Positions 2,844 to 22,666 of a stretch of 53,132 nucleotides of DNA are shown here, one piece after another. The notes beneath the pieces are model-generated. The model saw only the letters and a program-made list of their open reading frames with translations, made no database searches and had not been told where the DNA came from. The position numbers were made by a program, and so were the translations under genes. The stretch comes from Planctomycetia bacterium. Its GTDB lineage: Bacteria > Planctomycetota > Planctomycetia > Pirellulales > PNKZ01. The stretch is from assembly GCA_021413845.1 (NCBI GenBank), contig JAIOPP010000166.1:1-53132 (forward strand), read 5' to 3'. Positions within the stretch are counted from its first letter, which is position 1. Every line of letters starts with the position of its first letter.

Positions 2844-3911
2844 TTAGGTCGTCGCAGGTACTTCGTCGAGCAGCTTCGTCCAGCGCTTGGCGGTGCGGCG
2901 CTTCCAGGCACCTTGATGGTAGGCATAGCCGCAGACGAGCGGCATCGCGATCGTCGCTTCGCTGAACACCATCTGCTCGTACACGACGTCGACCTTGCCC
3001 CAGCTCGAGGCTTCCTTCAACGTCGAGCCCGAGAGAGCGCCATCGCGCGTGTCGGCCACGGTGATTTGAATCGCGTACTTGTGCATCGGAGCGTCGACGC
3101 CGAGGATCTCGGCCGCGACGACGATATCTTGCGCGAAGTTCTTCGGCACGCCGCCGCCGATCATCAGCAAGCCGGTATCCGGATTGCGGATCTTCAACTG
3201 CGTCAATTCATAGAAGTCTTTGGCGCTGTCGATGCTCACCTTCGGCTGGTCGCCGCGGGAGTGTTGATGGGCGACGAGCCCGAAGCCGGCCGAGCAATCG
3301 GAGAAGGCCGGGCAGAAGATCGGCACGTCGTTCTCGTAGGCCGCAGCGACGATCGAGTTCGGCGTCTTGCCGTTGTCTTTGAGATACACACCCATTTCGC
3401 GAATGAACTCGCGCGAGGAATGCGGTCGCGGCGGCAGCTCATCGGCGATCTGCTTCGTCACGTCGTCGCAGATGCGCAGCGCGTCTTCGTCGATGAACGT
3501 ATCGTAGATCCGGTCGATGTGCAGGTCGCGCAGGATGTGGTCGTCGAGGCCCGACTTGTAGCGGTCGTCGGCGATGTAGTGTTCGTAGCCGAGGGCTTCG
3601 AAGAAATCTTGATCGACGATGTTCGCCCCGGTGCTGACGATCGCGTCCACCATGTTGTGGCGAACCATGTCGACGATGATCTGCTTGAGCCCGGCGCTGA
3701 TGAGCGAGCCGGCCAAGCAGAGGATCACGCCGCATTCTTTGTCGTCGAGCATCCGGTGGTAGATCTCGGCGGCTCGGGCCAAGTCGCGGGACGAGAAGGC
3801 CATCTCGCGCATCTGTTCGACGATCGGCGTGACATCGACCTTGGTCATGTCGAAGTGCTTGATCGGGCGCGAAAGAAGTTCTTCGCGCGTCGGACGAACG
3901 GATTCACTCAT
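2844..3911 (-). CDS. Deoxyhypusine synthase family protein
   Basis: A 355-residue member of the deoxyhypusine synthase (DHS) fold family, NAD-dependent enzymes that move the aminobutyl group of spermidine onto an amine or Lys acceptor. It shows the family landmarks: STGANIVDQDFFE (NAD region), NDVPIFCPAFSDCSAGFG, GLLMIGGGVPKNF, and near the C-terminus EASSWGKV, where the Lys aligns with the catalytic Lys that forms the imine intermediate. Bacteria normally lack eIF5A, the eukaryotic/archaeal substrate, so a bacterial homologue more likely makes a polyamine such as homospermidine, or acts on another acceptor; this is inference. Length is normal for the family. The gene has its own terminator downstream. 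A 220-base gap containing a heptamer inverted repeat separates it from the isomerase gene upstream. Confidence 0.88.
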   Translation of the reverse strand: MSESVRPTREELLSRPIKHFDMTKVDVTPIVEQMREMAFSSRDLARAAEIYHRMLDDKECGVILCLAGSLISAGLKQIIVDMVRHNMVDAIVSTGANIVDQDFFEALGYEHYIADDRYKSGLDDHILRDLHIDRIYDTFIDEDALRICDDVTKQIADELPPRPHSSREFIREMGVYLKDNGKTPNSIVAAAYENDVPIFCPAFSDCSAGFGLVAHQHSRGDQPKVSIDSAKDFYELTQLKIRNPDTGLLMIGGGVPKNFAQDIVVAAEILGVDAPMHKYAIQITVADTRDGALSGSTLKEASSWGKVDVVYEQMVFSEATIAMPLVCGYAYHQGAWKRRTAKRWTKLLDEVPATT

Positions 3912-4029
3912 CGTGCTGCTACCCTCGGAAAATTACGAAGCGAAAAAGAAAACGGCGTCGAAAATTCGACGCCATTATTTGTATCGCGAGGGGGGGCGAG
4001 AGTCGAGAGGCGGCGGCGTGTCGGAGAAT

Positions 4030-4104
4030 GATAAATGCTAAGTGCTCAATGATAAATGGGAGAGAAATCCTCCGGCATTTATCACTTATCACTTAGCATT
4101 TATC
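4030..4104. repeat. Inverted pair of heptamer repeat tracts
   Basis: The left arm (4031-4058) is four consecutive heptamers (ATAAATG, CTAAGTG, CTCAATG, ATAAATG). The right arm (4076-4103) is four heptamers in reverse complement (CATTTAT, CACTTAT, CACTTAG, CATTTAT). Outer arms 4030-4044 and 4090-4104 are perfect 15-bp complements, inner arms 4051-4058 and 4076-4083 perfect 8-bp complements, all centred on 4067 with a 17-base spacer. The element sits in the gap between the isomerase stop and the DHS-like start, both on the minus strand. It is AT-rich against the surrounding GC-rich DNA. The transcript would fold into a long hairpin without a following T-tract. Confidence 0.85.
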
Positions 4105-4131
4105 GTTTCCGCAGGCTTTGTTCAGATTGCG

Positions 4132-5301
4132 TTAAGCCTTCAGCTGCTCATCGTGCCGCATGCCGCTCGGCGGTTGATCGGCGCGGTGGACATTTGCTAA
4201 GGCGGACTTCGCGCCGGCGTGTTGCTCGACGTCGTTGTCTTCCCATTCGATCGAAACGGCGCCGCTGAAGCCCGAGCGGTTGAGCTCGACGAACAGTTCT
4301 TCGACCGGCGCGGCGTCGCGGGCGGTGCCGGCGGTTACGAAGTTCCAGCCGTTATGTTTATCCCCCATCGGCTTGTGGCCGCCGAGGCGACCGTTGCGCG
4401 TGTAGCCGTCGATGACTTGCACACCTTTGATGTGCGCGCAGTGAATCCGGTCGCCGTAGGTGCGAATGAATTCGACGCCCGACACCCCTTGCCATTCCAT
4501 GTGCGAGCAATCGAAGTTGAAGCCGACGGCCTTGGCGTAGCCGGCCTTATCGCAAGCGGCGAGGTAGTCGCCGGCGCTGGCGATGTCGCCCATTGCGCGC
4601 TCGCTCGGATGGCATTCGAGATCGTAGGTGGTGCCGTACTTCAGGCAGGCATCGAAGACCGGCTTGAACCGTTCGACCAACAGCTCGAGGCTCACCGCAA
4701 ACACGTCCGGAATGTCGTATCCACCGAGCGACTTCGGCACCGGCGGGAAGAGGAACCAATGGCTCCAGCAATGCGCCGGCGAACCGACGAAGCCCGAGAC
4801 CGGGACGGTGCGGTCTTGCAGTTTGCCGATGAAGTGGGCAAGGCGGACGGTGTTCACCAGCGCCGTCGCCGCTTGCTTCTGCGCGATTGCGCCGATTTCT
4901 TCCGGCACGTACAGCGGGTTCGTGCGCGGCGGGTTGTTCCCCTTCCCGCGCCAAGCCTTATACGCCTCGACGCTCTCTCCGCCGATGAACTGCAACGTCT
5001 TCGCGCTCGGTTCGTCGCCGAGCACCTGGCCTTGTAAGTGGGCCGCGAGCGAGAAGATCTGCAAGCCGCGCTTCTGGGCCTTGGCGACGCGCTCTTTCGC
5101 GTAGGCTTCCGCACCGGCGTCGTCGCCGCAGCGCCCGAGGTCGAGTTCCCAAGATGCTTCCTCCCAGCCGTCGAAGCCGGTCGACGCGATCCAGTCGAGC
5201 CACTGGTCTTCGGGCACATTGCCGAACTGCCCACGCACGAGCCCGATCTGATGGTGCGAATGCTTGCCCGCGCGATGCGATTTCGTCTGGTGGTGTCCCA
5301 T
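4132..5301 (-). CDS. Sugar phosphate isomerase/epimerase-like TIM barrel
   Basis: A 389-residue protein of the xylose-isomerase-like/AP-endonuclease-2 TIM-barrel superfamily, which interconverts sugars or inositol derivatives using a divalent metal. Candidate metal ligands are spread as expected: Glu in YDLECHPSER, Asp/His in GFNFDCSHMEW, His in HCAHIKGV and Glu in AVSIEWEDND near the C-terminus. There is no signal peptide; the His-rich N-terminus (GHHQTKSHRAGKHSHHQ) is unusual, and the real start could be one of the few codons after it. Planctomycetes carry many such genes, often near oxidoreductases of sugar catabolism; here the upstream gene is a sulfatase on the same strand, so a role in using sulfated sugars is possible but unproven. 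Confidence 0.88.
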   Translation of the reverse strand: MGHHQTKSHRAGKHSHHQIGLVRGQFGNVPEDQWLDWIASTGFDGWEEASWELDLGRCGDDAGAEAYAKERVAKAQKRGLQIFSLAAHLQGQVLGDEPSAKTLQFIGGESVEAYKAWRGKGNNPPRTNPLYVPEEIGAIAQKQAATALVNTVRLAHFIGKLQDRTVPVSGFVGSPAHCWSHWFLFPPVPKSLGGYDIPDVFAVSLELLVERFKPVFDACLKYGTTYDLECHPSERAMGDIASAGDYLAACDKAGYAKAVGFNFDCSHMEWQGVSGVEFIRTYGDRIHCAHIKGVQVIDGYTRNGRLGGHKPMGDKHNGWNFVTAGTARDAAPVEELFVELNRSGFSGAVSIEWEDNDVEQHAGAKSALANVHRADQPPSGMRHDEQLKA

Positions 5302-10123: not shown

Positions 10124-11194
10124 CTAAGCTTCGAGAGCCGCGATTACGGCGTCGCCCATTTGCCGCGTCGAGAGCTTCCCGCCGAGATCCGTCGTCGCAG
10201 CGCCGGCGGCCAACGCCTGATCGACGGCTCGGCGAATCACGGCCGCGGCAGCCTCGGTTGCGGCGCTCGGGCCGATCCAATCGAGCATCATCGCCGCGCT
10301 GAGAATCGCCGCGACGGGGTTCGCGATCCCCTTCCCTGCGATGTCGGGTGCCGACCCATGCACGGGCTCGAACATCGAAGGAAAATTCCGTTCGGGATTG
10401 GTATTGGTACTCGGTGCCAAGCCGAGCCCGCCGCCGATGATGCCGCCGAGATCGGTCAATAAGTCGCCGAAGAGGTTCGACGCCACGACGACGTCGTAGC
10501 GCTCCGGACGGCGCACGAAGTCCATCGCCGCCGAGTCGCAGTGTTGTTTGTCGCTCTCGACGTCGGGATACTCGCCTCGGATGCGTTCGAGGATTTCGTC
10601 CCACATCACGTAAGAGTAGCGCATCGCGTTCGATTTCGTAATCATCGTCATTCGCTTGCGGCGCTTGCGAGCGAGCTCGAAGCCGAAGCGCAGAATACGC
10701 TCGACCCCTTTGCGCGTATGAATCGCCGTTTGCAAAGCGAACTCATCTTCGCGGCCGACATGGAACCGGCTCCCGGAATCGATGTACTCCCCTTCCGAAT
10801 TCTCGCGCACGACGACGAGGTCGATTTCCTTGGAACCCTTTTGTGCAAGCACGCTCGGCACGCCGCGCGGGAGCTTCGCCGGCCGCACGCAGGCGTATTG
10901 ATCGAACGTCTGCCGGATCCTTACGAGCGGCGCCAGCGTTTCGTGGTCGGGAATCTTTTCCGGCCAGCCGACCGCGCCGAGCAAGATCGCATCCTGCGGG
11001 CGAAGCACGTCGAGAAAGTTTTCCGGCACCACGCGGCCATGCTCGCGCCAGTAGTCGTAACCCCAGGGGAGCCGCTCGTATTGGAGCTTGAAATCGGCCC
11101 GCCGTTGCACGGCGTCGAGCACGCGCACCGCTTCGTCGATCACTTCCGGCCCGATGCCGTCGCCGGGATAGAGGGCAATCTTGTAGGTCTTCAT
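10124..11194 (-). CDS. Tartrate/isopropylmalate dehydrogenase family enzyme
   Basis: A 356-residue NAD-dependent beta-decarboxylating dehydrogenase of the isocitrate/isopropylmalate family, closest in pattern to tartrate dehydrogenase (TtuC/DmlA). It begins [32 protein letters not shown] and [17 protein letters not shown] contain the substrate-binding Arg residues, [14 protein letters not shown] has the conserved Lys, [13 protein letters not shown] the metal-binding Asp residues, and [18 protein letters not shown] the dinucleotide-binding loop. [16 protein letters not shown] is typical of tartrate/D-malate dehydrogenases and differs from LeuB. The likely reaction is oxidation of tartrate or D-malate. 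The start at 11194 has GGAG 11 bases upstream; a longer frame to 11281 adds an unlike leader. Confidence 0.88.
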
Positions 11195-11436
11195 CGAACG
11201 AAGGTCTCCGGCGGTGGGGGAACGTGCGGAACGGATCAGAATACTCTCGTTCGAGCCGGGAGTCATCCGGTCGTAAAGCATGCTTGCGAATCGAGATGCC
11301 GCGAAGGTCCGGTTCGTGCCGGTTTACAATTGTTTCCTACTTGCAATCCTGTTGCAGATTCGCGAAAATGCGGGGCCTGTTTACGCCGTGCTTCGTCTGC
11401 GGTTTCGTACTTCGCTTGCCCCTTGAGTTCGTCGGC

Positions 11437-12117
11437 ATGTTATCCGTCTTGAACGTGAAGAAGTCGTTTCGCCAGCCCGACGGCTCGCCGTTGCCGATCC
11501 TCGATGTGCCCCGATTCGAGGTGGCCGCCGGCGAACAGATGGTGCTGGCCGGCCAAAGCGGCGGAGGCAAGACGACGCTGCTGCATGTGATCGCCGGAAT
11601 CGCTCGGCCCGATTCGGGAAGTGTGAAGATCGGCGGCACGGAGATCACGACCTTGGCCGAAGCCGGCCGCGATCGGTTCCGGGCGCAGAACATCGGTTAC
11701 ATCTTTCAAACATTCAACCTGCTTCCCGGTTTTACCGCGCTCGAAAACGTGCTGCTGGGGATGAGCTTCAGCGGTTTGAAGGTCGACGAAGCTCGAGCGA
11801 AGCACTTGCTCGAACGGGTCGGCCTCGGCAAACGCCTGACGCACAAACCGGCGATGCTTTCCGTCGGCGAGCAACAGCGCACGGCGGTCGCTCGGGCCTT
11901 GGTGAACAAACCGAAGCTGCTCTTGGCCGACGAGCCGACGGCGAGTATCGACGCGCGGCATCAGCAGCAGGTGCTCGAGCTGATTCGCGAGACCTGCCGC
12001 GAAGAGGGCGTGGCCTTAGTGCTGGTGACTCACGCGCCGCAAGTGGCCGAACAGTTCGAGCGGATCGAACGCTTGGAAGAGATCAATCGAGCGGCGAGTG
12101 CGGCGACGCCGGTTTAA
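11437..12117 (+). CDS. ABC transporter ATP-binding protein, LolD/MacB type
   Basis: A 226-residue ATPase of the LolD/MacB type. Walker A is GQSGGGKTT, the Q-loop is FQTFNLLPG, the signature is LSVGEQQR (Val replacing the usual second Gly of LSGGQ), Walker B is LLLADEPTAS and the switch His is in LVTHAP. The start at 11437 (MLSVLNVKKSF) fits the family; the frame runs 71 codons further upstream, but that leader is Arg/Ser-rich and unlike the family. Its partner is the permease 118 bases downstream. LolD-type ATPases drive mechanotransmission by FtsX-type permeases, extracting lipoproteins or moving substrates in the envelope. Here the histidine-rich permease suggests a metal-linked cargo (inference). 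Confidence 0.92.
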   Translation: MLSVLNVKKSFRQPDGSPLPILDVPRFEVAAGEQMVLAGQSGGGKTTLLHVIAGIARPDSGSVKIGGTEITTLAEAGRDRFRAQNIGYIFQTFNLLPGFTALENVLLGMSFSGLKVDEARAKHLLERVGLGKRLTHKPAMLSVGEQQRTAVARALVNKPKLLLADEPTASIDARHQQQVLELIRETCREEGVALVLVTHAPQVAEQFERIERLEEINRAASAATPV

Positions 12118-12203
12118 CGGTGAGCCTGGAGTAACGTTGAGCCCGCGAAACCGCAAGCGAAGTACGGTCTCGGATGAAGGGTTTGCGTCGCTGTTTACGA
12201 CTG

Positions 12204-12235
12204 CAACGGACAACTGACAACGGACGACGGACAAC
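12204..12235 (+). repeat. Heptamer repeat tract abutting a start codon
   Basis: Tandem heptamers CAACGGA, CAACTGA, CAACGGA, CGACGGA and a partial CAAC run directly into the permease ATG at 12236. The final GGA (12229-12231) is the only purine-rich ribosome-binding candidate, 4 bases from the ATG. The period and sequence resemble the short tandem heptanucleotide repeats known from cyanobacterial genomes. Confidence 0.85.
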
Positions 12236-13750
12236 ATGAGTCTCTGGAAAATGGCGTGGCGGAGCATTCAGCAGCGCGGCACTGCGTCGGCGTTGACGAT
12301 GTTGTCGATGGCGCTCGGCGTTGCGCTGATCGTGGCCGTGATGGTCGTGTACGGCGTCGTCGATCAGTCGTTTCGCAATACGGCCAGCGGCTACGAATTG
12401 ATCGTCGGTGCGAAAGGGGGCTCGCTCCAGCTCACGCTCAACACGGTGTACCACATCGGCCGGCCGATCGAGAATATCCCTTGGACGTATTACAAAGAGT
12501 TTAAGCCCGGCGGCACGTATGCTTCGCTCGTCGAATCGGCGATTCCCTACTGCATGGGAGACAACTACGAAGGATATCGAGTCGTAGCGACGACGCCCGA
12601 GATGTTCACGACGCTCGAGTATGCGCAAGGCAAGCCGTATGAATTCTCGGCGGGACGCAACTTCGGCGCGGAAGCGGCCCACGCCGCCGGCGAACCCGAC
12701 GACGGCCACGGACACGCGCACGATTCCCATAGCCACGCCGGACACGACCACGCGGCGCACGACCACGGGCCTGCGAAGCCGGTAGCGAGCGCCACGGCCA
12801 CGGCGCCGTGGAAGCCGCGCACCGTCGCGATCGACGACGATGACATCGTTCACGAGCATGCCCACGAAGGGCACGATCATCATGCTCCGCCGCACTTCAA
12901 TGAAGCGGTGATCGGTTCGATCGTGGCGCGCAACACCGGTTTGAAAGTCGGCAGCACGTTTCAGCCGACGCACGGCATCACGACCGAAGCGGAGCAAGGC
13001 CATCAACACGATCCGATCACGGTCGTCGGCATTCTTCGTCCGACCGGCACGCCCAACGACCAAGCGATCTTCATGAACATCGAAGGGTTTTTCTTGCTCG
13101 AAGGACACTCGAAGTCGGGCGAGCATCATCACGACGGGCCGCTGCCGGAAGAAGATCGCGAAGTGACGGCGATCCTCATCAAGACGAGCCCGGATCATCC
13201 GACCGCCGGGATCACGCTCAAGAACGTGATTAACGAAGGCCAGATCGCGCAGGCCGCGCTACCGCTGCTGGAAGTGGCGACGCTGTTCAAGATGATCGTC
13301 CGGCCGGTGATGATCGTGCTACTGTTGGTGGCGGTGATGATCGTGATCGTTGCCGGCATCGGCATCATCGTCAGCATCTACAACTCGATGAACGAGCGCC
13401 GGCGGGAAATCGCGATCATGCGGTCGCTCGGGGCGGGCCGGTCGACGGTGCTGGCGGTCGTCATGCTGGAATCGCTGCTATTGGCACTTTGCGGCGGAAT
13501 CGGCGGCTTTTTGCTCGGGCATCTGCTCGTCGGACTGTCCAGCCCGTATCTCGTAGCTCAAACCGGCGTGGAACTCGGTTTCTTGCAGTTTCCTACCTTT
13601 GAGATACCCTTGGAGAGCGGGGCCTTGATCGTGCCGATAGAATTAGTATTGCTGCCGGGGCTGATTCTCTTGGCCGGGCTCGTCGGATACTTTCCCGCGC
13701 GAGCAGCCTACAAGACCGACGTCTCGCGCGCGCTGAGCAACTCCAACTGA
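12236..13750 (+). CDS. FtsX/MacB-type permease with histidine-rich insertion
   Basis: A 504-residue permease: TM1 at residues 18-42, a large extracytoplasmic domain (about 45-350), then three TM segments (about 353-382, 403-432, 463-485). NERRREIAIMRSLGAG (386-401) is the FtsX-family coupling loop. The extracytoplasmic domain is exceptional: 24 His fall between residues 149 and 299, including ten in 149-177 (motif GHGHAHDSHSHAGHDH), seven in 206-220 next to DDDD, and HHH at 297-299. Such stretches bind Zn, Cu or Ni in many metal transporters and chaperones. It pairs with the upstream ATPase. Substrate is unknown; I infer a metal or a metalloprotein. The conventional alternative is a lipoprotein-export (LolC/E) component. 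Confidence 0.9.
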   Translation: MSLWKMAWRSIQQRGTASALTMLSMALGVALIVAVMVVYGVVDQSFRNTASGYELIVGAKGGSLQLTLNTVYHIGRPIENIPWTYYKEFKPGGTYASLVESAIPYCMGDNYEGYRVVATTPEMFTTLEYAQGKPYEFSAGRNFGAEAAHAAGEPDDGHGHAHDSHSHAGHDHAAHDHGPAKPVASATATAPWKPRTVAIDDDDIVHEHAHEGHDHHAPPHFNEAVIGSIVARNTGLKVGSTFQPTHGITTEAEQGHQHDPITVVGILRPTGTPNDQAIFMNIEGFFLLEGHSKSGEHHHDGPLPEEDREVTAILIKTSPDHPTAGITLKNVINEGQIAQAALPLLEVATLFKMIVRPVMIVLLLVAVMIVIVAGIGIIVSIYNSMNERRREIAIMRSLGAGRSTVLAVVMLESLLLALCGGIGGFLLGHLLVGLSSPYLVAQTGVELGFLQFPTFEIPLESGALIVPIELVLLPGLILLAGLVGYFPARAAYKTDVSRALSNSN

Positions 13751-13816
13751 TCTTCCGCTGAGCCGATACGTCGCGACGTCGCTTCCACTTTCCAAATTTT
13801 CCAAGGGCGGATTTCC

Positions 13817-15100
13817 ATGCTGCGAACATCGAAAACATCGAAGTCGGTTCGGTGCGGCGCCTGGTTGAAACGGGCCGTGCTCGGCGCGGTCGTGGCGGCG
13901 CTGTTGGTCGACACTTTCGGATTGCGGCAAGCCGCGGCTTGTCCGTTTTGCAGCGCAGCCCAGATGACCCTCTCGGAAGACATCAAAGCCAACGATGTCG
14001 CCGTGATCTGCAAGCTCGTGGCGCGTCCGCCTGAGCAAGCCGCCGATGCCCCGCCCGAAGCGAGCCAATGCACCTTTGAAATTATTCAGACGATCAAGGG
14101 GGGAGAGGTCATGGCGAAGCAGGCCGACCCCAAGAAGATCAAAATTCTGTACTTCGGCGAGCAGCCGATCGGCTCGAAGTTCTTGGCGTTCGGCATCAAC
14201 CCGATGAATCTCGCTTGGGGAACGCCGACCCTGTTGAGCGAGCGGGCGATCGCGTATGTCGCGAAGCTGCCGGGCCTTCCCGCCGGCGGCCCGCAACGAC
14301 TGGCGTTTTTCCAAGACTATTTCGAAGACGCCGATTCGCTGCTCGCCGCCGACAGCTACGACGAATTCGCCAAGGCTCCCTATGCCGATCTCAAGGGGCT
14401 GAAAGATCGGATGCAGCACGACAAGCTGATCGCCTGGATCAAAGACCCGGCGGTAAGCACGAGCCGCCGCCGGCTGTATCTCTGCATGATCAGCGTTTGC
14501 GGTAAAGCGGACGACGTCGCGTTTCTCGAAGCGATGATTAGGAACACCGACCGCCAAATCCGCACCGCGCTCGACGCGATGATCGGCAGCTACTTGGCTC
14601 TGAAAGGTCCGGAAGGGATGCCGCTCATCGAAGACTTGTTCTTGAAGAATTCGAAGTCGGAATACACCGACACCTATTCTGCGATCATGGCCTTGCGGTT
14701 CATCGGCCAAGAGAGCGACGTCATCTCGCGCGAGCGGTTGAAAGAAGGAATGCGGCACATGCTCGACCAACCGAAGTTGGCCGACCTGATCGTTCCCGAC
14801 CTGACCCGTTGGGAAGATTGGACGGTCATGGATCGGCTCGTGAAGTTGTTCAAAGACGCCGATCCCGATTCGGCTTGGATCCGCTTGCCGGTCATCAACT
14901 ACCTGCGAGCCTGTCCGCTGCCGGAAGCGAAGGTCCGTTTGGAAGAGTTGGCGAAGCTCGACCCGGAAGTGGTCAAGCGCGCGATGAACTACTATCCGAC
15001 TCCGGCAGCCGATGCCTCGGCGACCGGTACGCCGAAAACCACGGAAGCGGCAACCCCGGCCACGACCGTTCCCCCGACGAATCCCGGGGCCGGCTCGTAA
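13817..15100 (+). CDS. Secreted CPFC-motif protein, helical repeats
   Basis: A 427-residue secreted protein. The signal peptide (residues 18-41, hydrophobic LGAVVAALLVDTFG, cleavage near QAAA) leaves a mature N-terminus beginning with CPFCSAAQMTLSE, a CxxC pair. A short beta domain follows (residues 50-130, with FEIIQTIKGGE), then a helical part with HEAT-like character (about 150-390) and a Thr/Pro/Ala-rich tail. It is a paralogue of the gene at 16876-18063: same CPFC start, same IQTIKG/RQTIQG strand, same helical architecture. It lies 66 bases after the permease, same strand. The CxxC could bind a metal or be redox-active; function not recognised. Probably co-transcribed with the transporter genes. 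Confidence 0.85.
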   Translation: MLRTSKTSKSVRCGAWLKRAVLGAVVAALLVDTFGLRQAAACPFCSAAQMTLSEDIKANDVAVICKLVARPPEQAADAPPEASQCTFEIIQTIKGGEVMAKQADPKKIKILYFGEQPIGSKFLAFGINPMNLAWGTPTLLSERAIAYVAKLPGLPAGGPQRLAFFQDYFEDADSLLAADSYDEFAKAPYADLKGLKDRMQHDKLIAWIKDPAVSTSRRRLYLCMISVCGKADDVAFLEAMIRNTDRQIRTALDAMIGSYLALKGPEGMPLIEDLFLKNSKSEYTDTYSAIMALRFIGQESDVISRERLKEGMRHMLDQPKLADLIVPDLTRWEDWTVMDRLVKLFKDADPDSAWIRLPVINYLRACPLPEAKVRLEELAKLDPEVVKRAMNYYPTPAADASATGTPKTTEAATPATTVPPTNPGAGS

Positions 15101-15241
15101 GTCGTCGTTCATAGCCCCCACTCTTGTGTCGCAAATCGTAAAGAACGAATTTCTAACATGTCGCGCGGTCTTGGCCGGATAGAATTCATCGTACGGAATC
15201 AAGACCTCGGGGGTCGCGGTCCGTCGAACTCGGCCGATGCC

Positions 15242-15949
15242 ATGCCCATGTCGTCTCTCGAAACTTCGCTCGCTGCTTCCGCCATCCCTGCCGATTCGTC
15301 GGCGACCTCCGACGAAGGCTTCGAGCACTATCGGGCCCTCTCCGGTTCGGCCGTCGTCAGCTTAATTCTCGGCATCGTCTCGGTCGTGTCGCTGCTCGAC
15401 TTCTGGATCTTGAAGGTCGTGCCGATCTTGGGAATCGTGGCCGGGCTGGGAGCGCTACGCACCATCCGTCGCCAGCCCGACGAACTCTCGGGCCGCAACG
15501 TTGCGCTGGCGGGGGTCGGCGTGTCGGCGTTCTTGCTGTTCGCCGGCTCGGCATGGTCGGGCTATTCATATGCCGTCGAAGTGCCCGAAGGCTACCAGCG
15601 CATCGACTACACGATGTTGAAGCATCCGGAGGAGTCGCGAAAGAATTCCGTTTCGCCGGCGGCGCAAGCACTCGAAGGCAAGAAGGTCTTCTTGAAGGGC
15701 TTCATGTTCCCGACGGCGCACGACAAAGGGCTGACGCGTTTCGTGCTTTGCCGCGACAACGGCGATTGCTGTTTCGGGGGGCAGCCGCCTCCATCGGACA
15801 TGGTGTTTATCCAATTGAAAACGCCGCTCCAAGCGACCTTCACCACCAAGATTCGTCACGTCGCCGGCATTTTCCATGTGGCCGGTTCGCATTCTTCGGA
15901 CGTAAATAAAGACGTTCTTTATCAGCTCGAAGCCGATTACATTAAGTAA
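15242..15949 (+). CDS. Membrane protein with DUF3299-like CCFG domain
   Basis: About 235 residues. An N-terminal DUF4190-like region with two TM segments (VVSLILGIVSVVSLLDFWIL and NVALAGVGVSAFLLFAGSAW) is followed by a periplasmic domain with FLKGFMFPTAHDKGLTRFVL, then CRDNGDCCFGGQPPPSDMVF, and FTTKIRHVAGIFHVAG near the end. The Cys-rich loop plus proline run resembles the DUF3299 domain (an OB-like fold whose ACIHxPPPP loop occupies the same position); this assignment is from pattern memory. An upstream extension to 15158 is in frame but unlike a membrane-protein N-terminus, so I use the ATG at 15242. It shares its domain with the next gene and lies inside the transporter cluster. Three Cys in the loop could bind metal. 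Confidence 0.82.
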   Translation: MPMSSLETSLAASAIPADSSATSDEGFEHYRALSGSAVVSLILGIVSVVSLLDFWILKVVPILGIVAGLGALRTIRRQPDELSGRNVALAGVGVSAFLLFAGSAWSGYSYAVEVPEGYQRIDYTMLKHPEESRKNSVSPAAQALEGKKVFLKGFMFPTAHDKGLTRFVLCRDNGDCCFGGQPPPSDMVFIQLKTPLQATFTTKIRHVAGIFHVAGSHSSDVNKDVLYQLEADYIK

Positions 15950-16010
15950 GACCTAGTCTTACTGCGTCGGCTCTCGTTCGCCGATCGCTCGCCTTATTCG
16001 GGACTTGCTC

Positions 16011-16868
16011 ATGCGTCTTTTCCGCTCGCTCGTCGTCGGTGGTTGCGCTGCGGCGCTGTCGTTCGTCGGCGGTTGTTATCGGCCGACGGAAAAGGCCGAA
16101 GAGAAACGGCCCAAAGCAGCGGTCGCGGTTGTTCCCGACATCAAAGACGACGCCGACAGTAAGACGTTTCAGCGCGTGACCGTAGCGAGCATTCAAGAAG
16201 AAGCCCGTCGCAAAGCAGCGCTTGCCGCGGCGAATTCTTTGAAGCCGACCGGCACGCCGACCCCTTCGGCAACTGTGCCGGTGGCGTCGGCCACGGCCGG
16301 TCCTGCTCTCGGTCCTGTTCCCACAGCTTCCGCATCGGCGACCGGCGATCGTTACCTTCGCCCGGCGATGCAGCGGGCCTTGCCGACGGCCTCGGCCGAA
16401 GCACGTTCGCCGCGCTCGCCCGTTCGTCCGTCGAAGCCGGGAGTTCCCCCTCCGCGCACCCGGGTACTTGCGGCACCGGAAACCTCGGGAGGCGCGCTCG
16501 GAGTGACGTTCGACAATCTGATGTTCGAGATGAAACCGACCGATTATTTCTCGCCGACGATGCTCACCGACGCAGTACGAGCGCTCTTCGAAAAGAAGAT
16601 CAAGATTCGCGGCTACATCCATCCGGCCTCGATGTTGGTGGAAAAGGGAGCGAAGCGGTTCGTCCTCGTTCGCGACGACCAAGGCTGCTGCTTCGGGCCG
16701 GGGGCCCTGCTCTACGACAACATCATCGTCGACATGGTGCCGGGCAAGACGACGAATTTCTCCGTCCGTCCGATCGCCGTCGAAGGAGTGTTGACGTATC
16801 GCGAATATCGCGACCTCGGCGACCGCCCGACGTCGATCTTCCATCTCGAAGCCGACTCGGTGGAGTAA
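16011..16868 (+). CDS. Lipoprotein with DUF3299-like CCFG domain
   Basis: A 285-residue probable lipoprotein: signal MRLFRSLVVGGCAAALSF, then VGGC as lipobox (Cys20). A low-complexity Ala/Pro/Thr/Ser linker (residues 70-150) leads to a C-terminal domain (about 165-285) homologous to the last 110 residues of the preceding gene: IKIRGYIHPASML, then KRFVLVRDDQGCCFGPG, and FSVRPIAVEGVLTYREY. The first Cys of the neighbour's CRDNGDCC is Val here, but the CC pair is kept. I choose ATG 16011 over the in-frame TTG two codons upstream. It sits 61 bases after the preceding gene and 7 bases before the next, so co-transcription is very likely. Confidence 0.82.
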   Translation: MRLFRSLVVGGCAAALSFVGGCYRPTEKAEEKRPKAAVAVVPDIKDDADSKTFQRVTVASIQEEARRKAALAAANSLKPTGTPTPSATVPVASATAGPALGPVPTASASATGDRYLRPAMQRALPTASAEARSPRSPVRPSKPGVPPPRTRVLAAPETSGGALGVTFDNLMFEMKPTDYFSPTMLTDAVRALFEKKIKIRGYIHPASMLVEKGAKRFVLVRDDQGCCFGPGALLYDNIIVDMVPGKTTNFSVRPIAVEGVLTYREYRDLGDRPTSIFHLEADSVE

Positions 16869-16875
16869 GCACATC

Positions 16876-18063
16876 GTGAGCGTTTCGACGTCGAGCCGAG
16901 TGTGCTTCGTCGGCGTGCGTCATAAGGTCGCCGGCCTCTTCGTCGCCGTGTCATGCTCGCTCGCGTTCACTTCTTCGGCGTCGGCGGCGTGCCCTTTTTG
17001 CAACGCGGTCGAACCGTCGTTCGCCGAGCGCCGTGCCGCTTGCGCGGCGCTTGTGCTCGGCGAAGCCGTGGCCGACGAGCAACCGGCGAAATCGGCGTTG
17101 CGGACATTCGTCGTGCGCCAAACGATTCAAGGTGCCGAAGCGCTCGGCAAAGTCGAGCGGATCTCCTGCTCGGCACCCGACGTTGCGGCCGGCGGCTTAG
17201 CGTTGTTGCTCGGCAGTCGCGTCAAGTCGCCTGCCGGTTGGGCGTGGGATGCGATCGGCGTCGAAGAAGCGGCGTTGGTGTACTATCTGCGCGCGCCGGC
17301 CGTCAGCAAACCGGCTGCGGAGCGGCTGCCGTACTTCGCGAAGTATCTAGAACATGCCGACTCTCAGGTTGCCGAAGATGCGTTCTGGGAATTCGGCCGC
17401 GCCCCGTTCGACGCGGTCGCAGCGACGGAAAGCACGCTGCCGTATGAAAGACTCCGTCGCGCGCTGACGGATGTGAATGTGCCCGGCCGGCGCAAAGGAT
17501 TCTACGGCCTCGCGCTCGGCCTGGCGCGCGATGAAACGGAGCGCACGGCGAACCGCCGGCTGCTCGACGAGCTCGTGCGCGCCGAAGCGAACGATTTTCG
17601 CGCCGGGTTCGACGGCATTCTGGCGGGCTTTCTGCTCGCCGAAGGAACCGCTGCGCTCGATCTGATCGATACGCGGTTCCTTGCGAACCCTCAGGCCGGC
17701 GAGGGAGACGTGCGTCATGCGCAGGCCGCGCTTCGGTTCTATTTGCAGTACGGCCGCGCGATTCCGGCTGAGCGGTTGTTGCGCAGCGTCGTCCTGTTGC
17801 TCGATCGACCGGCGACCGCACCCGAAGCGCTCGGAGACCTGACCCGACACCAAGCTTGGAACCATATCGAACGAGCGATGAAGCTCTTCGTCGATTCCCC
17901 GGGAGACGATCCGGCTCTCGATCGGGCCGTCGTCGGCTACTTGCTGGTCGATCCGTTGCCGGCGGCGAAGCCGGCGCTGCGCAAGCTCAAATCGGGCTAC
18001 CCTAAGCGAAGCGAGGAAGCTCTGCACCACTGGTCGACGCTCGGGGTCGGCGAGCGGTCGTGA
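16876..18063 (+). CDS. Secreted CPFC-motif protein, second copy
   Basis: A 395-residue paralogue of the gene at 13817-15100. GTG start with GGAG 10 bases upstream, only 7 bases after the preceding stop. The signal peptide (GLFVAVSCSLAFTSSASA) leaves CPFCNAVEPSFAERRAA at the mature N-terminus. The short beta domain (FVVRQTIQGAEALGKV) and the long helical region with repeated Asp/Arg/Leu helices are in the same order as in its paralogue; the C-terminal Thr/Pro tail is absent. It closes the six-gene cluster and converges on the lipoprotein gene at 18079 with a 15-base gap. Function unknown; the duplicated CPFC proteins flanking the duplicated CCFG proteins suggest a multi-component periplasmic relay. 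Confidence 0.83.
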   Translation: MSVSTSSRVCFVGVRHKVAGLFVAVSCSLAFTSSASAACPFCNAVEPSFAERRAACAALVLGEAVADEQPAKSALRTFVVRQTIQGAEALGKVERISCSAPDVAAGGLALLLGSRVKSPAGWAWDAIGVEEAALVYYLRAPAVSKPAAERLPYFAKYLEHADSQVAEDAFWEFGRAPFDAVAATESTLPYERLRRALTDVNVPGRRKGFYGLALGLARDETERTANRRLLDELVRAEANDFRAGFDGILAGFLLAEGTAALDLIDTRFLANPQAGEGDVRHAQAALRFYLQYGRAIPAERLLRSVVLLLDRPATAPEALGDLTRHQAWNHIERAMKLFVDSPGDDPALDRAVVGYLLVDPLPAAKPALRKLKSGYPKRSEEALHHWSTLGVGERS

Positions 18064-18078: not shown

Positions 18079-19689
18079 TTACTTCGCCGCTGCCGGCCCT
18101 TCGATGAACTTGGCGCGTTCGAGCGCTTGGTCGTCGGGCGCGAGGTCGAGAAACGTCGCTCGATAGGTTTCGATCGCTTGCTTGAGGAGCGCTTGCTTGC
18201 GTGTCGAATCGGTCGCGGCCTCGGATTCCGCTTCATAAGTTCGGCCGAGATTGTAGCGGGCTCCGGTCGTCCAATCGGCGCTCGTCTTCTCTTTCAATAC
18301 CAGCTCGAAATAAGAGCGGGCCGTCTCGAAGTTGCGCAAGTCGTAGGCGACGAGCCCGAGCCAGTAAGTCGCGTTCTGTTTGATTCGATGCGCCAGGGCC
18401 CAGGCTTGCGCGTCGCGTTGCAATTGAATCTCGGCGAGATCTTCTTCGGCGGGTCGCGCACCTTGGTAATAGCGATTGATCGACAGATTCATCAGTGCCG
18501 GATCGGTCTCTTGCGGGTTCTCGTAATACTTGCCGGAAAAGTGACGGATGCGGGCCTTCAGCAGCGGCGACACCGTTCCGGGGCGAAGGTTGTGGCGCGG
18601 CAGATTGTAGGGAGACAACAGCGCCTTCAGCTGCGCGAAATTTTCCTTCTCGCTTTCACGACTGGCGGCGTAGCGCTCGTCGCGCAGCGGCCAAGCGACT
18701 ACTTCGACGATGCCGGGGCATTGCTTCAGCTGCGCGGTGAGCGCCGCCGGATCGATCGAGAGGACCAATTTGTCGCGGCCTCCCAAGGCCTTTTCGAACT
18801 GCGCGAAGCGGGGTTCGACGTACGACGACGAAACGTCGATGATCGCGACCAGGCGCGCGATCTCAGAAGCGCGCGCGGGATACGCCGGCTTGCCGGCCAA
18901 GTCGAGCGCTCGGAGCAATCCGTCGTCGGCCGTGGCTTGCGCGAGCGTGGCGGTTTGCTTGCCGTCTTTGGTTCGGATCGGCGCCCCGATGCGCGCATCG
19001 AAGAGATAAAGTTGCTTGTCGAGCAAGAGCGCGGCGCACCAGCGCCGAAGTTGGTTCGGCTTGATGCCGGGAGTCGGATCGGGATAAGCCAGCAAGACGA
19101 CATCGAGCCCTTGCTGCCGCGCGAGCAGCTGAAAAATCCAGGCCCGATCGAGTTCCGTCGCCCGTCCGAGGAGGAAGGTGTGCCAGGGAAGAAACGGCAA
19201 TTTCGCCTCGGGCGTTTCCGCGGGAACGAGTTGCAGATTCCGAATCGTCCAATCGAAGAGCCGTTCGGCTCGACGAAGCGGATCGGTTTCGTCGCCGACG
19301 GCGAACCGCGCCGTGTCGCGCAGCCAAACCATCTCACGCAAGATCCGGCCGTCTTCGATCGTCATCGGACCGGGTCGATCGGCGCTCGCCGGAAGCGTGG
19401 CGAGGCCTTCGTTCAATCGACGGATCAGTTGCCGCAGCGCCGTCTCGATGTTCCCTTCGTCGAAGTTGTCGAGATCGTTGAGCATGTCGGAAGCGCTCGT
19501 CAGCAACCGGCGACCCATTTGTTCCCGTTCGGCTTGTTCGGTCGCGAGAGGTTCGACGCGCGGCGCCGTGGAGCCGCCCGGATCGTTGCAGCCGGCAAGC
19601 GATGAAACGACGGTGCATAGCAGCACGGATATTCCGACGAACGAAAACCGGCGAACCACATCCCAGGCGAATTGCGAAATCGACGACAC
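18079..19689 (-). CDS. Lipoprotein with degenerate transglutaminase-like and TPR regions
   Basis: A 536-residue lipoprotein (signal RRFSFVGISVLLCTVVSSL, lipobox LAGC, Cys34). Residues about 130-240 resemble a transglutaminase-like fold (RLFDWTIRNLQLVP, then GRATELDRAWIFQLLARQQG and YLFDARIGAPI), but the position of the catalytic Cys appears to be Glu in TELDRAW, so it is probably not an active enzyme. Residues about 430-530 contain two to three TPR-like helix pairs (NATYWLGLVAYDLRNFETAR and ARYNLGRTYEAESEA), suited to protein-protein contacts. It starts 53 bases after kdsA on the same strand and is likely co-transcribed with it, hinting at an envelope role. The precise function is not recognised. 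Confidence 0.8.
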   Translation of the reverse strand: MSSISQFAWDVVRRFSFVGISVLLCTVVSSLAGCNDPGGSTAPRVEPLATEQAEREQMGRRLLTSASDMLNDLDNFDEGNIETALRQLIRRLNEGLATLPASADRPGPMTIEDGRILREMVWLRDTARFAVGDETDPLRRAERLFDWTIRNLQLVPAETPEAKLPFLPWHTFLLGRATELDRAWIFQLLARQQGLDVVLLAYPDPTPGIKPNQLRRWCAALLLDKQLYLFDARIGAPIRTKDGKQTATLAQATADDGLLRALDLAGKPAYPARASEIARLVAIIDVSSSYVEPRFAQFEKALGGRDKLVLSIDPAALTAQLKQCPGIVEVVAWPLRDERYAASRESEKENFAQLKALLSPYNLPRHNLRPGTVSPLLKARIRHFSGKYYENPQETDPALMNLSINRYYQGARPAEEDLAEIQLQRDAQAWALAHRIKQNATYWLGLVAYDLRNFETARSYFELVLKEKTSADWTTGARYNLGRTYEAESEAATDSTRKQALLKQAIETYRATFLDLAPDDQALERAKFIEGPAAAK

Positions 19690-22240: not shown

Positions 22241-22666
22241 ATGTCCGCTATCCAAGGTCTCATTTCCGCTCTCGGCCGAATCATGCTCGTCGGCATTTTC
22301 TTGATGAGTGCCGTCGCCAATAAGATTCCGCAGTTCAACGCCGTGGTCGAGAAGATGACCGAGGAAGGAATTCCGAACGCTCGTTATATGTTGATGGGTG
22401 CCATCGCATTTCTGATTATCGGCAGCTTATCGGTCATGCTCGGTTATAAGGCCCGCGTCGGTGCGCTGCTGCTGGCGGTGTTTCTCGGCATGGCGACTTA
22501 CTACTTCCACGACTTTTGGACCTTCGCTCAAGACTCGACTGAGTTTAAGACCGAAATGGGAAACTTCATCAAGAATTCGTCCATCATGGGCGCGCTCTTC
22601 TTCATCATCGCCAACGGCTCCGGCGCAGGGAGCGTCGATCGACGCAAAGTGACGATCGTCGTCTAA
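22241..22666 (+). CDS. DoxX family membrane protein
   Basis: A 141-residue protein with four hydrophobic segments: about residues 8-26 (ALGRIMLVGIFLMSAVANK), 48-66 (YMLMGAIAFLIIGSLSVML), 70-88 and 113-128. The opening GRIMLVGIFLMSAVANKIPQ and the middle PNARYMLMGAIAFLIIGSL are typical of DoxX proteins, integral inner-membrane proteins linked to redox or thiosulfate metabolism and thiol stress in different bacteria. The start is supported by AAGGAA 8 bases before the ATG. The gene stands alone between the divergent methyltransferase gene and an alpha/beta hydrolase gene 186 bases downstream. Confidence 0.9.
   Translation: MSAIQGLISALGRIMLVGIFLMSAVANKIPQFNAVVEKMTEEGIPNARYMLMGAIAFLIIGSLSVMLGYKARVGALLLAVFLGMATYYFHDFWTFAQDSTEFKTEMGNFIKNSSIMGALFFIIANGSGAGSVDRRKVTIVV

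Follow-up and report, generated by a model that had tools for sequence, protein, structure and literature searches.

What might a cluster of six genes do in which an ATP-binding cassette (ABC) transporter core with a histidine-rich permease is joined by two pairs of envelope proteins with cysteine motifs? The cluster was found in a Planctomycetia bacterium of the Pirellulales (contig JAIOPP010000166.1 of assembly GCA_021413845.1), in a stretch of 53,132 nucleotides that was analysed as a whole and is called the window below. It encodes an ATPase (gene 1), a permease (gene 2), two proteins with a CPFC motif (genes 3 and 6) and two DUF3299-type proteins with a CCFG motif (genes 4 and 5). Judged from its sequences, the cluster represents a planctomycete form of the Zrg-type ABC system (zrgABCDE of Vibrio cholerae and V. 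parahaemolyticus, PA4063-PA4066 of Pseudomonas aeruginosa) that lacks ZrgA and has CPFC proteins in addition.

Kinship with the Zrg systems

It is very likely, from sequence comparison, that the six-gene cluster belongs to the same family as Zrg. The permease carries the Pfam domains MacB_PCD and FtsX. Its relatives were chosen by permease similarity (the best 80 of 148 confirmed, many on contigs that end nearby), and 97 permeases were aligned: those of 78 of the 80 relatives, that of the window, 10 from class-mates and 8 from plasmid records. In the two remaining loci (L032, L073) the permease was missed by the simple gene finder. A tree of 51 rows was built from 42 of the 97 permeases, the Aeromonas permease and eight controls. 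One clade (support 98/98) united 43 rows, among them the permease of the window and the ZrgA-associated proteobacterial permeases. All eight controls, namely LolC, LolE and MacB of E. coli and five FtsX paralogues from the genome of the window, fell outside this clade, some of them on long branches flagged by the program. A profile built from the planctomycete-side set gave 575.7 bits for the permease of the window, 178-300 bits for nine plasmid-record relatives not included in the profile, and 37-61 bits for the eight controls.

Gene 1 belongs to the LolD/DevA/FtsE class, its best NCBIfam model being LolD (199.9 bits versus a cut-off of 307.75). The LolD-type ATPase and FtsX permease of the original prediction were correctly recognised. 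In all 63 ATPases adjoining a family permease, the third position of the C-loop is occupied by a residue other than Gly (V in 55, T in 6, I and R in one each), unlike in LolD and MacB of E. coli, where the C-loop reads LSGG. The ATPases of Phaeobacter, Sulfitobacter, Ruegeria, Catenovulum and Aeromonas read LSVG or LSIG. Gene 4 combines a DUF4190 membrane domain with DUF3299 (Pfam E 4.6e-8), while the DUF3299 match of gene 5 is sub-threshold (E 0.0084). Both proteins align over 98 residues of a common DUF3299-type domain (28%, E 4e-10). They were the only hits of a DUF3299-type profile in their genome, where the Pfam model by itself found gene 4 alone. The structural model of gene 4 (32 aligned sequences, mean predicted local distance difference test score, pLDDT, of 80) shows an OB fold. 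Its top PDB chain was 4hsp, the DUF3299 protein PA4066 (Foldseek E 6e-7; VIA Z 12.5 with a root-mean-square deviation of 2.5 over 110 residues, the next row reaching 8.8), which gene 4 also matched in sequence (E 0.0064). With the permease in the ZrgA-associated clade and gene 4 in the DUF3299/ZrgE family, the parallel to Zrg drawn in the original prediction was right and is stronger than it was stated.

The cluster shares with Zrg a LolD-class ATPase, a separate permease of the same clade and a DUF3299 partner, and with the Zrg relatives of Phaeobacter, Sulfitobacter and Aeromonas the non-Gly third residue of the C-loop. It differs from Zrg by the lack of ZrgA in the genome, by two DUF3299 and two CPFC proteins, and by a large His-rich insert in the permease. 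Likeness to LolCDE is limited to the best model of gene 1 and the FtsX type of the permease; unlike LolCDE, the cluster stays under the LolD and LolCE cut-offs (34.7 of 362.45 bits for LolCE), its permease branches apart, and a second permease gene is missing from it.

The MacB_PCD and FtsX architecture of gene 2 is also that of MacAB-TolC and speaks for an exporter of a metal-chelator complex or another periplasmic small molecule, as in the pyochelin-cobalt export proposed for PA4064-PA4065 in the passages of PMC11481552 on this operon. A Ruegeria locus (L097) fits such a function, with an HlyD-type adaptor gene (3128-4285, Pfam HlyD_D23 E 1.2e-8) that immediately precedes ATPase, permease and DUF3299. 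On the other side, ATPase and permease are encoded by separate genes, and the permease reaches 40.8 of 966 bits with the MacB model and lies outside the MacB branch. Neither an HlyD/MacA domain nor a TolC-like gene was found among the ten proteins scanned (cluster and tested neighbours), and in the remaining plasmid neighbourhoods that were displayed, annotation tags no gene as adaptor or TolC. We consider an exporter of this kind quite unlikely.

The six genes follow each other on one strand, as originally predicted, have confirmed coordinates (Table 1) and are conserved. The ambiguous start codon of gene 4 is the sole soft point of the layout. Both flanking genes lie on the opposite strand, an isocitrate/isopropylmalate dehydrogenase gene (10124-11281) on the 5' side and a gene at 18079-19689 on the 3' side; therefore, the cluster is a self-contained run. 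A promoter and terminator scan of the cluster revealed no sigma-70-like site and nothing useful at its end, and when its nucleotide sequence was compared with plasmids, just short ATPase matches came back. A DoxX-family membrane protein is encoded elsewhere in the window, at 22241-22666 (Pfam E 1.3e-12).

Table 1. Features of the six-gene cluster (positions refer to the window)
Feature	Position	Strand	Basis
Gene 1, LolD-class ABC ATPase (ZrgC-like), C-loop LSVGEQQ	11437..12117	+	Model scores
Gene 2, FtsX/MacB-type permease (ZrgB-like)	12236..13750	+	Pfam MacB_PCD + FtsX, tree, profile scores
Permease loop, His-rich part (24 His in residues 149-299)	12680..13132	+	
Conserved loop histidines of the permease, H246 (HG), H258, H291	12971..13108	+	Alignment of 97 permeases
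Gene 3, CPFC protein: putative signal peptide, Cys-x-x-Cys, suggested NTR/TIMP-like OB domain, HEAT repeats	13817..15100	+	
CPFC of gene 3 (residues 42-45), immediately past the likely signal-peptidase I site	13940..13951	+	
Gene 4, DUF4190 membrane anchor and DUF3299 OB domain, CCFG	15242..15949 (start perhaps 15158)	+	
Gene 5, the other DUF3299-type protein, CCFG, probably a lipoprotein (N-terminus read by eye)	16011..16868	+	
Gene 6, second CPFC protein	16876..18063	+	

Conserved histidines and cysteines

The count of 24 His in the extracytoplasmic loop of the permease, already given in the original prediction, was exact (24 of 151 residues, with a binomial probability of 8e-14 given how frequent His is in the other called genes of the window). 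The proposed check on conservation of this His insertion had a mixed outcome. The insert at residues 146-224 occurs in this form in the window alone among the 97 permeases (a shorter one is present in L007), and the median number of loop His is 7. What recurs are His-rich runs (at least 5 His per 30 residues), which were detected in 26 of the 97 sequences and begin in 24 of these at one region, residues 289-298 of the window permease, Bacteroidota and Alphaproteobacteria included. A short His motif is also conserved. H246, H258 and H291 were found in 79, 78 and 81 of the 97 sequences, respectively, and D275 in all of them. The pair H246 and H258 is present in 76, including 8/8 from plasmid records, and was recognised by eye in the Aeromonas permease beside ZrgA. 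Losses of the pair fall mostly in one set of Planctomycetaceae/Thermoguttaceae-type records, and H246, H258, H291 and H429 are invariant in the 10 class-level permease rows. The pattern for the conserved loop His was found in none of the five FtsX paralogues of the same genome.

In the DUF3299 proteins, 72 motifs were collected from 71 sequences: CCFG (39), CxFC (13), CxYC (8), CCYG (3), CYCAPP (2), CPFC (1) and CxH-P types (6). The motif differs by lineage, and a Cys followed by a Cys or His within three residues is present in 71/71 proteins, a count that is descriptive because the motifs had been read before the pattern was drawn up. The His pair of the permease and the Cys/His pair of DUF3299 are conserved candidate metal sites. 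In one relative (L017, 11318-12667), a single frame of 450 residues unites genes 4 and 5 and carries both CCFG motifs. By eye, the N-termini of the DUF3299 proteins from Phaeobacter, Deinococcus and Paracoccus resemble a twin-arginine signal.

Genes 3 and 6 (27% over 395 residues, E 7e-38) are the two members of the CPFC family in their genome. Both pairs named in the original prediction are paralogous, and the CPFC and CCFG motifs occur in both members of their respective pairs. The Cys-x-x-Cys motif is present in 29 of 33 family proteins (28 CPFC, one CPYC); the other four have lost it (L007_7496), read CPFG (L159_6140), have a doubtful start (L165_6431) or are a fragment (L176). In 27 of the 29, an Ala stands immediately before the motif, where a signal-like stretch ends; the mature protein therefore probably begins with Cys. 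Near-invariant Cys in the CPFC proteins number just two.

The one family that Pfam and NCBIfam scans recognised in the CPFC proteins is that of the HEAT repeats: HEAT_2 matched 7 of 13 members and the NTR/TIMP models none. The CPFC profile had no match at E 1 among the PDB sequences. In the model of gene 3 (13 sequences, pLDDT 83.8, the CPFC segment poorly predicted), a small beta domain precedes HEAT-like helices. For the first part, Foldseek returned agrin NtA (E 0.0027-0.0039) and TIMP-1 (E 0.015-0.038) with a probability of 1.00, and for the second part HEAT/ARM repeats. HEAT/ARM repeats fill the 50 VIA rows shown for this model, and no NTR/TIMP relative appears in them. An NTR-like OB domain at the N-terminus is thus suggestive, because the resemblance comes from the Foldseek rows and no NTR Pfam model matches. 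TIMPs start with a metal-chelating Cys, and the CPFC proteins appear to resemble agrin NtA and N-TIMP-1 both in the fold of this domain and in the Cys at their likely mature N-terminus. They are unlike them in the HEAT repeats after the OB domain, in the absence of a Pfam NTR/TIMP match and presumably in the near-invariant Cys pair, which we take to differ from the TIMP disulfide set.

Proteins from Rhizobium plasmids (12 records) align to residues 161-388 of the CPFC query, its C-terminal half. The one translated (L179, 4479-5675) shares with the family a signal-like stretch and a CAIC at the same place. It differs by the lack of Zrg-type ABC genes among ten annotated neighbours, and its gene lies beside genes for a peptidyl-prolyl isomerase and a HupE/UreJ_2 protein.

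The same residues could be read without any metal. In a machine for lipoprotein release or for wall or lipid work, similar to LolCDE or FtsEX, the Cys would serve as disulfide or redox residues and the His would be low-complexity drift. LolD as best model of gene 1, the lipoprotein-like gene 5, the species-specific length and place of the His insert and the classic redox spacing of CPFC are all consistent with it. The distance to the LolD and LolCE cut-offs and the separation of the permease clade from LolC and LolE argue against it, as do the His runs that share one site in 24 of 26 cases and the Cys partner of DUF3299, which varies only between Cys and His. A metal-free function is accordingly judged improbable.

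Distribution in relatives

Stretches from the 80 relatives contained a family ATPase (strict threshold) in 48 cases, a DUF3299-like gene in 37 and a CPFC gene in 8. Among 246 sampled phylum genomes, the permease was detected in 49 (strict threshold), DUF3299 in 63 and CPFC in 18, 15 of these being the genome of the window and others of its order and class, and the other three partial matches; at most six candidates per genome were scored for CPFC and permease, which leaves those absences soft. Sixteen genomes of the class were searched again with the permease and DUF3299 profiles. One permease each and DUF3299 were found in 16/16, and CPFC in 15/16. In nine of them all the genes lie in one cluster (G000, G121, G205, G048, G069, G152, G181, G227, G238), with two or three other genes interposed in G181 and G238. 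A block DUF3299-DUF3299-CPFC lies apart from the permease in five (G024, G087, G105, G137, G194), and in G216 the genes are spread over three places. DUF3299 adjoins CPFC in 14 of the 16 genomes. Gene order also changes with lineage, from permease-CPFC-DUF3299-DUF3299 (L169/L170) to permease-DUF3299-DUF3299-CPFC-CPFC (L157/L159). Retention through such rearrangement points to a working link between the genes, strongest for DUF3299 and CPFC. The synteny that had been proposed as a check is thus seen in relatives, the genes being either syntenic or co-retained.

ZrgA (PF10986/DUF2796) gave no match in the genome of the window; in the phylum sample it exceeded the cut-off in 1/246 genomes and was found in 10/246 at E 0.001. 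An explanation of the sub-threshold matches as His-rich permease loops was rejected, the family permease being in none of the ten loci. Outside the phylum, the closest plasmid relatives with annotation have the gene order Fur-DUF2796-ATPase-permease-DUF3299 in Phaeobacter and DUF2796-ATPase-permease-DUF3299-DUF3299 in Sulfitobacter; in Aeromonas (L095) the order is ZrgA (Pfam E 6.5e-58)-ATPase-permease-DUF3299. The comparison shows ATPase, permease and DUF3299 to be the core across Proteobacteria, Deinococcota, Verrucomicrobiota, Bacteroidota and Planctomycetota, and ZrgA to be a lineage-specific addition to it.

In gut-type planctomycete metagenome-assembled genomes (MAGs; L034, L036, L049, L050, L075, L076, L084 and others), the permease follows a gyrA-like gene, DUF3299 is present and no family ATPase adjoins the permease. 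The ComEC- and SmpB-like flanks of Pirellula-type loci, read by eye, were taken as unrelated. In a Bacteroidetes MAG, a membrane protein with a His-rich tail (HHHSHSHSHNHD; L028, 10916-11584) directly follows ATPase, permease and DUF3299 and has no Pfam match at E 0.01. In four loci of Deinococcota and Paracoccus plasmids (L091, L093, L096, L098; Deinococcus, Allomeiothermus, Thermus and Paracoccus), an alkaline phosphatase gene is followed by a small DUF3299-like gene (E 4e-18 to 8e-10) whose motif reads CPFC, and this by the Zrg-type ATPase and permease. The Deinococcus phosphatase is of the PhoA type (PF00245, E 1e-60), the other three being so named by annotation; a link between the ABC core and an envelope zinc enzyme is possible.

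Metal and mode of action

The direction of Zrg-type operons is disputed. In the sections of the cited papers that deal with these operons, the work on V. cholerae describes a zinc importer (PMC9820375) and that on P. aeruginosa a MacB-like exporter (PMC11481552). According to the same sections, zrgABCDE was induced 76- to 206-fold under zinc limitation in V. parahaemolyticus (PMC9817125, Table 1), further zinc regulation of Zrg relatives was reported (PMC11481552), zinc is bound by ZrgA (PMC9820375, PMC8561739), and ZrgA is required for low-zinc growth of V. cholerae, whose zrg mutants are zinc-limited (PMC9820375). Because the relatives are zinc-regulated and ZrgA binds zinc, zinc is the best guess, and by analogy the cluster probably, though by no means surely, works on zinc or a zinc-like metal.

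Import of Zn2+ into the cytoplasm, as proposed for V. cholerae, would require that the His insert and the CPFC and DUF3299 proteins replace ZrgA. The shared clade with ZrgA-associated permeases and the zinc-limited zrg mutants (PMC9820375) favour it. So does the number of loop His, 6 and 4 in ZrgA-positive permeases versus 21 and 14 in two alphaproteobacterial relatives without annotated ZrgA, as if His-rich sequence had been relocated; this comparison rests on very few loci, and a His trade-off between ZrgA and permease was dropped, the loci being too few to count. We know of no MacB/FtsX-fold transporter with four transmembrane helices that passes ions, and the same is stated for PA4064/PA4065 in PMC11481552. 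The genome of the window also holds an ABC-3 importer of the ZnuB type (2 permease matches), besides two FUR-family genes. With this ZnuB-type pair, the part of main importer need not fall to the cluster, and a second plain importer is not required. We regard zinc import as unlikely.

In MacB, ATP-driven motion of the periplasmic domain (mechanotransmission) is established. The MacB/FtsX-type permease of the cluster therefore suggests that ATP drives motion of a periplasmic domain and not ion flow, as PA4064/PA4065 are described in PMC11481552. Taken as a whole, the best explanation, to which we give an even chance, is a Zrg-type variant that works as a metal hand-off machine on the periplasmic side. 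The ATPase cycle of gene 1 would move the periplasmic domain of the permease, and no ion would be pumped through a channel in the membrane. On the periplasmic side, the conserved loop His would catch Zn2+ or a similar metal, the His-rich insert adding metal capture in the species of the window. The metal would then be handed on to, or received from, the OB domains of the membrane-tethered DUF3299 proteins with CCFG and the CPFC proteins with their N-terminal Cys-x-x-Cys. Hand-off in exactly this form is slightly harder to credit and remains tentative. A periplasmic hand-off of zinc or a similar metal, in either direction, is favoured in view of the results on zrgE, PA4066 and PA4065, which speak against the zinc guess, and of the ZnuB-type pair. 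Sequence comparison shows that the cluster belongs to the Zrg family, that ZrgA is missing, that the His and Cys motifs are conserved and that the genes are retained together; the metal export, delivery or metallation role of the original prediction is an inference, as are the binding of metal by the motifs, the identity of the metal, its hand-off and its direction.

Several observations weigh against this explanation. V. cholerae knock-outs of ZrgE, a DUF3299 protein, had no growth effect in the experiments described in PMC9820375. In the account of PMC11481552, PA4066 is without evident zinc-binding ability, and loss of PA4065 caused no relevant change of cell zinc in P. aeruginosa, pyochelin-cobalt export being proposed instead. 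Upstream Zur/Fur-like boxes scored no better than shuffles, with a pattern that may not be the planctomycete one, and no palindrome upstream of gene 1 was common to relatives. No family ATPase match was found in 32 of the 80 relatives' stretches and no DUF3299 in 43, partly where contigs end nearby; in one class genome (G167), which has a permease, DUF3299 lies far away and CPFC gave no match. Conservation is missing for the large His-rich insert, and one or both of H246 and H258 are absent in 21 of the 97 permeases.

A related possibility, which we hold to be unlikely as well, is a MacB-fold complex without transmembrane transport, in which ATP would serve to load metal into exported proteins or strip it from them. 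The permease His would take the metal, and the DUF3299 OB domains, with Cys-Cys or Cys-His, would be the universal relay. Clients or docking proteins would be ZrgA in Proteobacteria, the PhoA-type phosphatase in the four Deinococcota/Paracoccus loci and CPFC in planctomycetes, where the N-terminal Cys might face the metal in a TIMP-like manner. If this is true, Zrg would act in the periplasm as a metallation machine driven by ATP and not as an importer.

The Zrg core is already known. A planctomycete form of it that lacks ZrgA and carries CPFC proteins was not found in the openly licensed full text searched and appears from the sequences to be new. The comparison also gives a name to the CPFC protein family, with its suggested NTR-like domain and HEAT repeats, and the conserved His pair of the permease together with the Cys/His pair of DUF3299 provides candidate residues that bear on the dispute between import and export.

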